Shown here piece after piece: positions 10,978 to 30,409 of a DNA stretch of 30,551 nucleotides; the first letter of the stretch is position 1; every line of letters starts with the position of its first letter. Position numbers and translations under genes: made by a program. The stretch is from an uncultured Collinsella sp. (GTDB lineage: Bacteria; Actinomycetota; Coriobacteriia; Coriobacteriales; Coriobacteriaceae): NCBI GenBank assembly GCA_934650095.1, contig CAKUFT010000020.1, forward strand, positions 1-30,551, in the 5' to 3' direction. Below the pieces are notes generated by a model that searched no databases, had not been told where the DNA came from, and saw nothing but the letters and a program-made list of their open reading frames with translations.

Positions 10978-11128
10978 CTCCCGAGCACGGCGGAGGGCCG
11001 GAGAAATATATTAAGGTCCCTGCTCTACAGTCCTGCGCAAGACGGAGAGCACATTAAGTGCTCTCCTTTGCGTGCGGAACTCGCGATGACCTTAATATAT
11101 TTCTCCGGCCCTCCGCCGTGCTCGGGAG
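10978..11128. repeat. Long hairpin element with conserved 69-nt core, copy 1
   Basis: Arms 10978-11018 and 11088-11128 are a perfect 41-bp inverted repeat. Between them is a 69-base core (11019-11087) almost identical to the core at 28294-28362. Inside the core GGAGAGCAC (11044-11052) pairs with GTGCTCTCC (11058-11066) around ATTAA, and GCAA pairs with TTGC below it. In the other copy both strands of this stem change together (G-C to A-T). The outer arms of the two copies are unrelated apart from TTAAG next to the core. The element lies 38 bases past the stop of the histidine phosphatase gene and 260 bases before rplC. It may be a mobile palindromic element or a structured RNA. Confidence 0.85.
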
Positions 11129-28145: not shown

Positions 28146-28174
28146 AGGATACGTGGCGTTAGCTGTGCCGTCAA
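28146..28174 (-). promoter_or_regulatory. Promoter of the rpsL operon
   Basis: On the minus strand TTGACG (28169-28174) and TATCCT (28146-28151) are separated by exactly 17 bases, a good sigma-70-type match. Transcription would begin near 28139 and give a leader of about 87 bases. Confidence 0.65.
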
Positions 28175-28258
28175 CAGACCACGCCGCCGGGCGTATCCCA
28201 AAATTGGCACATTTCCGCAAACCCTACACAAAAGGAATCCCCTCCTGTGCGCGGGGGC

Positions 28259-28397
28259 GGATTCTCGGGCCGGGCGGCCCAGGTATTAAGTTTGCTGCTC
28301 TACAGTCCTGCGCAAGACGGAAAGCACATTAAGTGCTTTCCTTTGCGTGCGGAACTCGCGACAAACTTAAACGGCGGGCCGCCCGGACCGGGAATCC
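28259..28397. repeat. Long hairpin element with conserved 69-nt core, copy 2
   Basis: Arms 28259-28293 and 28363-28397 pair over 35 bases with a five-base internal loop and two single-base interruptions. The core (28294-28362) differs from copy 1 (11019-11087) at only four of 69 positions. The inner stem here is GGAAAGCAC (28319-28327) with GTGCTTTCC (28333-28341), a compensated change relative to copy 1. The outer arms share no sequence with those of copy 1 beyond TATTAAG beside the core. It lies about 200 bases upstream of rpsL. Confidence 0.85.
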
Positions 28398-28420
28398 GAC
28401 GCGCTCGTCGGGGCAACGTT

Positions 28421-28457
28421 ACCTGCCAAAAAGGGACAGGTTTGTTTTGGTCGGTTT
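28421..28457 (+). repeat. Short repeat, type D, copy 1 (GGGACAG core)
   Basis: ACCTGCCAAAAAGGGACAGG followed by TTTGTTTTGGTCGGTTT; CC-AAAA and TTTT-GG halves can pair. The second copy (30371-30409) is in the opposite orientation, and the pair brackets the sigma and anti-sigma genes. Confidence 0.65.
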
Positions 28458-28523
28458 TATCTGCGGAAACGTCGCGCTCCAGCGGTGATCCGCCCTCATC
28501 TGTCATAGGGAAATCGGCGGCGC

Positions 28524-28653
28524 TTTCGGAAGTATGCGGCAAATTCTGGACCTGCCGAGCACGCCGGGGTTTGCGATAATAAACCAGCAGGTAGAGCGCT
28601 TGAGCATATGCGGTGTGGTCGGCCCATCGAGATTTTGCCGCATACTTCCGAAA
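28524..28653. repeat. 20-bp perfect inverted repeat enclosing nested hairpins
   Basis: TTTCGGAAGTATGCGGCAAA (28524-28543) and its exact reverse complement (28634-28653) enclose 90 bases. Inside, CCTGC pairs with GCAGG and GGTTT with AAACC around GCGATAAT. It may be a further small palindromic element. An open frame crosses it on the minus strand, but I do not consider it a gene. With the promoter, the hairpin element and the type D repeat, it accounts for most of the 28053-28733 gene-free stretch. Confidence 0.6.
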
Positions 28654-30356: not shown

Positions 30357-30370
30357 AATTCAAGCAGGAA

Positions 30371-30409
30371 AAACCTACCAAAACTAACCTGTCCCTTTTT
30401 GGCAGGTTT
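30371..30409 (-). repeat. Short repeat, type D, copy 2 (GGGACAG core, inverted)
   Basis: On the minus strand it reads AACCTGCCAAAAAGGGACAG followed by GTTAGTTTTGGTAGGTTT, close to copy 1 at 28421-28457. The two copies point in opposite directions. Confidence 0.65.

Follow-up and report, generated by a model that had tools for sequence, protein, structure and literature searches.

Two long hairpins in the genome of an uncultured Collinsella sp. carry almost the same tip on arms that are unrelated in sequence and that, in each copy, pair with each other. What kind of element keeps its centre and exchanges its stem, and does a stem compensated in this way imply selection on a folded DNA or RNA? 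The window, by which we mean the whole stretch of 30,551 nt that was analysed (contig CAKUFT010000020.1), holds both hairpins on its plus strand. In copy 1 the locus-specific left arm of 41 nt (10978-11018) is perfectly paired with the right arm (11088-11128), giving 41 bp of 100% complementarity around a conserved tip of 69 nt (11019-11087), which reads CTGCTCTACAGTCCTGC..GTGCGGAACTCGCGA on the plus strand ('core-plus') and AGTTCCGCA..AGGACTG on the minus strand ('canonical'). Copy 2 (28258-28398) has arms of 37 nt that are 81% complementary (28258-28294 and 28362-28398) and a tip at 28295-28361. The 69-nt tips of the two copies show four differences. The compensatory change described in the original prediction is real and concerns one pair of the apical stem, 11047 G/11063 C in copy 1 and 28322 A/28338 T in copy 2; in copy 1 this stem-loop, GGAGAGCAC-ATTAA-GTGCTCTCC, occupies 11044-11066. 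The folding energies correspond to z = -14.1 (copy 1) and -7.2 (copy 2), and 0 of 200 dinucleotide shuffles folded as well for either copy. Complementarity, shuffles and the family-wide copies described below thus confirm two hairpins with a shared tip and unrelated, self-pairing arms, and a covariance-model scan of the window at E ≤ 0.01 returned copies 1 and 2 only.

Copy 1 lies 262 bp from the TTG-started rplC (10716) and copy 2 lies 207 bp from rpsL (28052), likewise TTG-started, and a special link to ribosomal operons had been suggested. This link is not supported. In NZ_OY725717 all 11 pattern matches lie between genes according to the PLSDB gene table, which is incomplete, at pnp-rnjA (two), rplC, rpsL, groES, thrC-thrB, manA, murB, tsaD (two) and one more site, and the association with ribosomal operons is incidental. 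No coherent regulon is visible among the neighbouring genes. Between copy 2 and rpsL, outside the element, a sigma-70-like promoter match (TTGACG-17-TATCCT, minus strand, 28146-28174; a consensus match only, with one match found and 0.2 expected) places the hairpin probably outside the operon leader, while the scan found no sigma-70-like promoter between copy 1 and rplC. A ribosomal-protein leader was rejected as an identity, given that copy 2 stands upstream of the rpsL promoter match and most annotated copies stand at other genes. Using a home-made gene caller on three Collinsella genomes and the window, so that sites recur in the count, we found 49 of 72 copies in tandem gaps, 20 in convergent and 3 in divergent ones. 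The picture is less clean in other genomes: with the same kind of gene caller, 28 of the 59 copies of G077, G115, G089 and G083 lie in tandem gaps, 12 in convergent and 6 in divergent ones, whereas 11 fall within predicted ORFs (in G115, G089 and G077) and 2 are at an edge. The window also holds a second long hairpin without the tip, which adjoins copy 2 (28524-28653; 43-nt arms, 84%), and partly palindromic repeats around GGGGACAGG and CCTGTCCCTTTTTGGCAGGT at 2289-2328, 2538-2577, 28421-28464 and 30364-30407. Repeats of the CCTGTCCCTTTTTGGCAGGT kind also border other copies of the hairpin family.

Of 43 Collinsella genomes, 35 match the core pattern and none matches its reversed control. Aerofaciens-like Collinsella carry 7-24 tip-pattern matches per genome, mostly 16-24, and the recurrent Collinsella tip is 67 nt long; among the more distant species, G033 and G034 have 17 matches each, G028 has 9 and the others have 0-3. 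The exact 22-mer occurs in 117 stretches of a species-representative collection, and 80 of 80 among the matches listed are Collinsella. A covariance model (R1), built from an alignment (A1) of 49 diverse copies, matches 72 of 118 genomes of the order and 25 of 57 genera. Because R1 gives about 45 bits to every long perfect hairpin, matches below about 50 bits were not counted as members, and a sequence pattern, AGTTCCGCA-N12..42-AGGACTG, was used as an independent test. The pattern is present in 128 of the 246 class genomes, which represent 49 of 110 genera, with 13 control matches in total, and a lone match in a genome may be chance. The tip and long arms recur in distant copies, among them L396, L398 and L385 and, further away, L414-L418; the mean arm is 34 bp in Collinsella and 25 bp in distant copies (n = 67). 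Outside the class the pattern is sporadic (13 matches in 8 of 337 genomes of the phylum), and control matches are more frequent there. One genome of another class in the same phylum, G292, is the lone stand-out outside Coriobacteriia, with 6 tip-pattern matches and 0 control matches. The tip is therefore not confined to two places: the family is one of interspersed extragenic REP-like hairpins of Coriobacteriia, with a tip kept across genera and arms that differ by site.

The conserved tip spans about 40-70 nt and consists, on the canonical strand, of AGTTCCGCA, a variable apical stem and AGGACTG. The arms around it are GC-rich (78% GC in the outer left arm against 60% in the left flanks), and an AT-richer stretch adjoins the tip in many Collinsella copies. 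Inward of the arms, in the plus-strand reading, lie a short stem with an asymmetric internal loop and then an invariant AGTCC/GGAACT with a bulge; the inner tip has a mid-stem in three sequence classes and then the covarying apical stem, all these helices being drawn partly by eye. Two-sided changes occur in 29 of 34 pairs and pairing is retained in 89.7% of cells against 61.1% when shuffled. The covariation score is 0.723 against 0.217 shuffled and at most 0.297 with partners slid, on a structure derived from the same alignment, which favours that structure. The expectation that the element has many copies, keeps its tip and covaries in its stems is thus borne out. The GTAG of the aerofaciens tip is not conserved in other genera. 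Three variants were observed: a 33-nt short version (L482:6731-6764, G122) within a predicted reading frame that we take to be SufD-like; a second tip type (L339:4215-4555, G014), shorter and diverged (ACATTCTCGCTTTGCTGCGAAACT), at the same site as L305 and with unrelated perfect arms; and a half tip followed directly by a second complete hairpin (L139:2470-2700), with the breakpoint inside the apical stem.

The arms are paired within each copy and specific to each site. Arms were compared in 201 distinct Collinsella copies, which fall into 30 flank clusters; the biggest cluster (76 copies) merges several sites. Arms pair in 190 of the copies and are broken in 11; the median arm score is 32, compared with 7 (maximum 19) in 344 cross-cluster controls, and 88% of copies lie above the control maximum. 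Arm 16-mers are common to three cluster pairs only, one of which is the same site flipped, the others sharing four and one. This comparison, made between clusters only, revealed no donor copies for new arms. Even a single site can carry unrelated arms among relatives, all of them well paired (L317, L325, L341). Same-site pairs with flanks at least 85% alike had left arms less than 70% identical in 36 of the 143 sampled, and mean identity over these pairs was 84% for left arms and 94% for tips (at most 40 pairs per cluster, excluding the 76-copy cluster and copies with an arm score below 19). Arms are thus locus-specific rather than always the same sequence.

Alleles of single sites suggest how arms may arise. 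At pnp there are chimeric copies with arms from two alleles, and the inner part of the right arm contains AGCAAAAGGGC, which mirrors the tail of the pnp terminator. In L502 and L518 nearly the same arms (the right arm differs by one base) enclose a tip that is inverted and otherwise identical, and L303 and L320 likewise have common arms around a flipped tip. Locus A was read as filled in 5 genomes and empty in 10. Its empty alleles form a short hairpin, GGGTGGAG or GGGCGGAG..CTCCGCCACC, and in L493 and similar filled alleles the outer stem of this hairpin is retained and its loop replaced by the tip with an inner stem; L512, also filled, has different arms, and L510 is chimeric. The empty alleles of locus B have no visible homology to the arms. 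At the rplC site, perfect palindromes that have other centres and lack the tip stand in the distant Collinsella species G016, G022 and G035 (L233, L234 and L235; 54, 52 and 40 bp per arm), and the hairpin tip is present there in one distant Collinsella (L231). Among the alleles compared we found no fresh insertion with a clean empty site.

The best explanation, to which we give a probability of roughly 0.45, is a REP-like extragenic family whose tip would be selected or propagated, whose arms would be made locally by template switching and whose hairpins would be filtered at the RNA level. The tip would be the unit that is kept or spread, and the arms would arise on the spot, from stems already present and by fold-back template switching, in which one arm is rewritten from the other or from flanking DNA; the same process could homogenise arms and invert the tip. 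The parts of PMC8794818 and PMC8604942 that we draw on attribute to template switching perfect stems, multibase compensation, arm homogenisation and inversion of the loop or spacer. We infer template switching here because perfect stems, block compensation and inversion of the tip between relatives match these reported signatures, as a pattern only. It is rather doubtful that the tip alone spreads as a 'self-arming' element, entering existing stem loops or single-stranded gaps, with each new copy building a long inverted-repeat stem from the local flank. If so, copies would have the centre in common but differ at their ends, opposite to the usual transposable elements.

The original prediction held that a conserved tip and a covarying stem imply selection on a folded DNA or RNA. 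The pattern stands, but for the arms the inference is too strong, because template switching can yield the same pattern (PMC8794818 and PMC8604942, in the parts used here) and the mismatch types are strand-neutral. The compensatory change alone does not prove RNA selection either, given that G.T and A.C mismatches are equally common (41 and 45), with no RNA-strand preference; by transcription context the ratios are 13:19, 17:14, 1:0 and 1:1, with 5:11 unassigned.

A somewhat less likely explanation, though one to be reckoned with, is selfish non-autonomous mobile DNA of a REP- or MITE-like kind, without host function, whose folded tip would be recognised by a recombinase or transposase and whose arms would be target hairpins or by-products. 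Copy number is patchy, at 0-44 per genome in the class (maximum 22+22, G077) and 0-29 within Collinsella, which is not as expected of an indispensable function. Copies are interspersed, and paired hairpins in Collinsella stand in F..R order at distances of 206-283 bp (in G077 there are one F..R pair and one same-orientation pair). Broken copies are tolerated, and filled and empty alleles both exist. Conserved ends, however, are absent. In REP sequences one palindrome end carries a conserved GTAG or CGTC, according to the relevant part of PMC3733652. Within 9 nt outside each arm, in one copy from each of 29 clusters, GTAG occurs 0 and 0 times and CGTC 1 and 0 times, and the commonest tetranucleotide outside the arms is found in 6 of 29 clusters. 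A link to a RAYT/REP transposase was rejected: Y1_Tnp occurs in 10 of the 16 genomes rich in copies and in 11 of the 17 poor in them, and it is absent from G077, the genome with 44 matches. REP-like logic, in the sense of a foot and a Y1 transposase, was accordingly not upheld. The sole candidate target duplication is an 8-bp repeat, CCGGCGGG, at pnp, where 388 bp are absent in G014, and this fits insertion or deletion between the repeats alike. The thrC-thrB and rplC sites are also filled in distant Collinsella species, and orientation is tied to neighbouring genes.

This orientation bias also bears on a classical structured RNA, a 3' UTR or intercistronic cis-regulator in which RNA selection would have shaped the stems through ordinary compensatory substitutions. 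Of the copies that lie no more than 80 nt from a gene 3' end, 29 are core-plus in that transcript and 6 are opposite (p = 1e-4; G014, G077, G115, G089 and G083, five genomes from four or more genera), with 23:0 when G077 is left out and 6:6 in G077 alone; near gene starts the ratio of 14:5 is not significant. In the 5' arm G exceeds C in 25 and T exceeds A in 24 of the 29 clusters; the ratios in distant copies are 52:10 and 34:15. Both signals would suit a structured RNA, as would the strong covariation and the tip kept across genera, and yet we regard this reading as clearly unlikely. Against RNA selection stand the lack of any excess of G.U over A.C, the inversion of the tip within near-identical arms and the persistence of broken copies. 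In addition, arms are swapped wholesale between relatives, the stems far exceed the length that RNA regulators usually need and the neighbours suggest no regulon. PMC8794818, in its discussion of the 5' G/U asymmetry of RNA stems, proposes template switching via G.U intermediates as the cause. It is highly improbable that the family is a DNA-level site with attC-like logic, folded as a cruciform or single strand and serving recombination or chromosome structure: tip inversions, chimeric arms, rearranged flanks and strand-symmetric mismatches would agree with it, but the transcription-linked orientation bias and the 5'-arm asymmetry point to a strand-asymmetric process, and by eye no cassette arrays surround clustered copies.

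To return to locally made arms around a selected or propagated tip, the stems would have been made by template switching, probably with some filtering at the RNA level, the latter because of the 3'-end orientation bias and the 5'-arm G/T asymmetry, and an RNA function is a candidate. Many copies may be transcribed, in 3' UTRs and between cistrons, where a tip-reading factor might protect the 3' end or process the transcript and the hairpin might thereby be filtered as RNA. An intrinsic terminator was rejected, given that no U-tract follows the stem on either strand (29 clusters; 67 distant copies). The 9 nt past the stem contain 2.4 T (core-plus) and 1.47 T (canonical) in the 29 clusters, compared with 2.3 and 1.64 at 40 nt further, and 2.27 and 1.07 against 1.75 in the 67 distant copies. 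Terminator scans around both window copies gave 0 and are no test of these hairpins, because the loops were limited to 3-8 nt.

The expectation that no named family fits agrees with Rfam and with the open papers listed. No Rfam 15 match reached the gathering cut-off in the window, and in 20 distant loci the single such match was a tRNA in another part of L416. Under the cut-offs, copy 1 resembles miRNA models with long hairpins (MIR1437 at E 4e-9 has 55.5 bits, where 168 are needed), and the other matches are weak, scattered and unconvincing. A cmscan of copy 1 up to E = 10 did not return the Collinsella-1 RNA (RF01700), listed in the portion of PMC2864571 used here as a structured RNA candidate from Actinobacteria and the human gut. 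A phage origin was rejected: the exact 22-mer has 0 matches in IMG/VR, and a phage collection gave no match. A loose pattern is found in at least 120 phage stretches, none with arms among the matches listed (the best scores 7.5, whereas five distant members reach 11.5-20), and these are hence taken as chance. A search of the open literature on Collinsella, Eggerthella or Coriobacteriia repeats found no description of this hairpin family among the papers listed. The main text of PMC8040213, a microbiome-wide RNA screen, names Collinsella once (an L7/L12 leader) and reports 250 palindromic candidates, and it is possible that the family has an unnamed entry among the supplementary candidates.

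The family is a structured repeat spread across a class of common gut bacteria, and neither Rfam 15 nor the open papers listed gave an earlier description of it. It also offers a natural experiment on whether perfectly compensated stems need selection or whether template switching is sufficient: the one conserved tip stands at many orthologous sites on stems of independent origin, which makes the two measurable against each other. It is a warning that covariation alone may mislead calls of functional RNAs.

Among known systems, REP/BIME elements with TnpA-REP (RAYT) come close, as interspersed extragenic palindromes in both orientations with inverted pairs, patchy copy number and many extragenic copies, mostly in tandem or convergent gaps. 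However, REP palindromes are 20-40 bp long with a stem sequence conserved between copies, whereas the Coriobacteriia hairpins conserve the tip and have locus-specific stems. MITEs have conserved terminal inverted repeats, whereas here the arms are unrelated between flank clusters. Integron attC sites are folded sites with conserved structure, variable sequence and a variable terminal stem. The Coriobacteriia hairpins resemble them in conserved structure and variable sequence, but no R/L boxes were recognised by eye and no cassette arrays were seen. Intrinsic terminators are likewise GC-rich hairpins, often directly past a stop codon, but the present hairpins lack the U-tract, have a structured tip of 40-70 nt and often lie away from a 3' end. 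Template-switch hairpins or quasipalindromes, as treated in parts of PMC8794818 and PMC8604942, share the perfect stems, multibase compensation, arm homogenisation, inversion and 5' G/U asymmetry; in the Coriobacteriia hairpins, by contrast, the spacer is a conserved multicopy family and the arms reach 20-50 bp.
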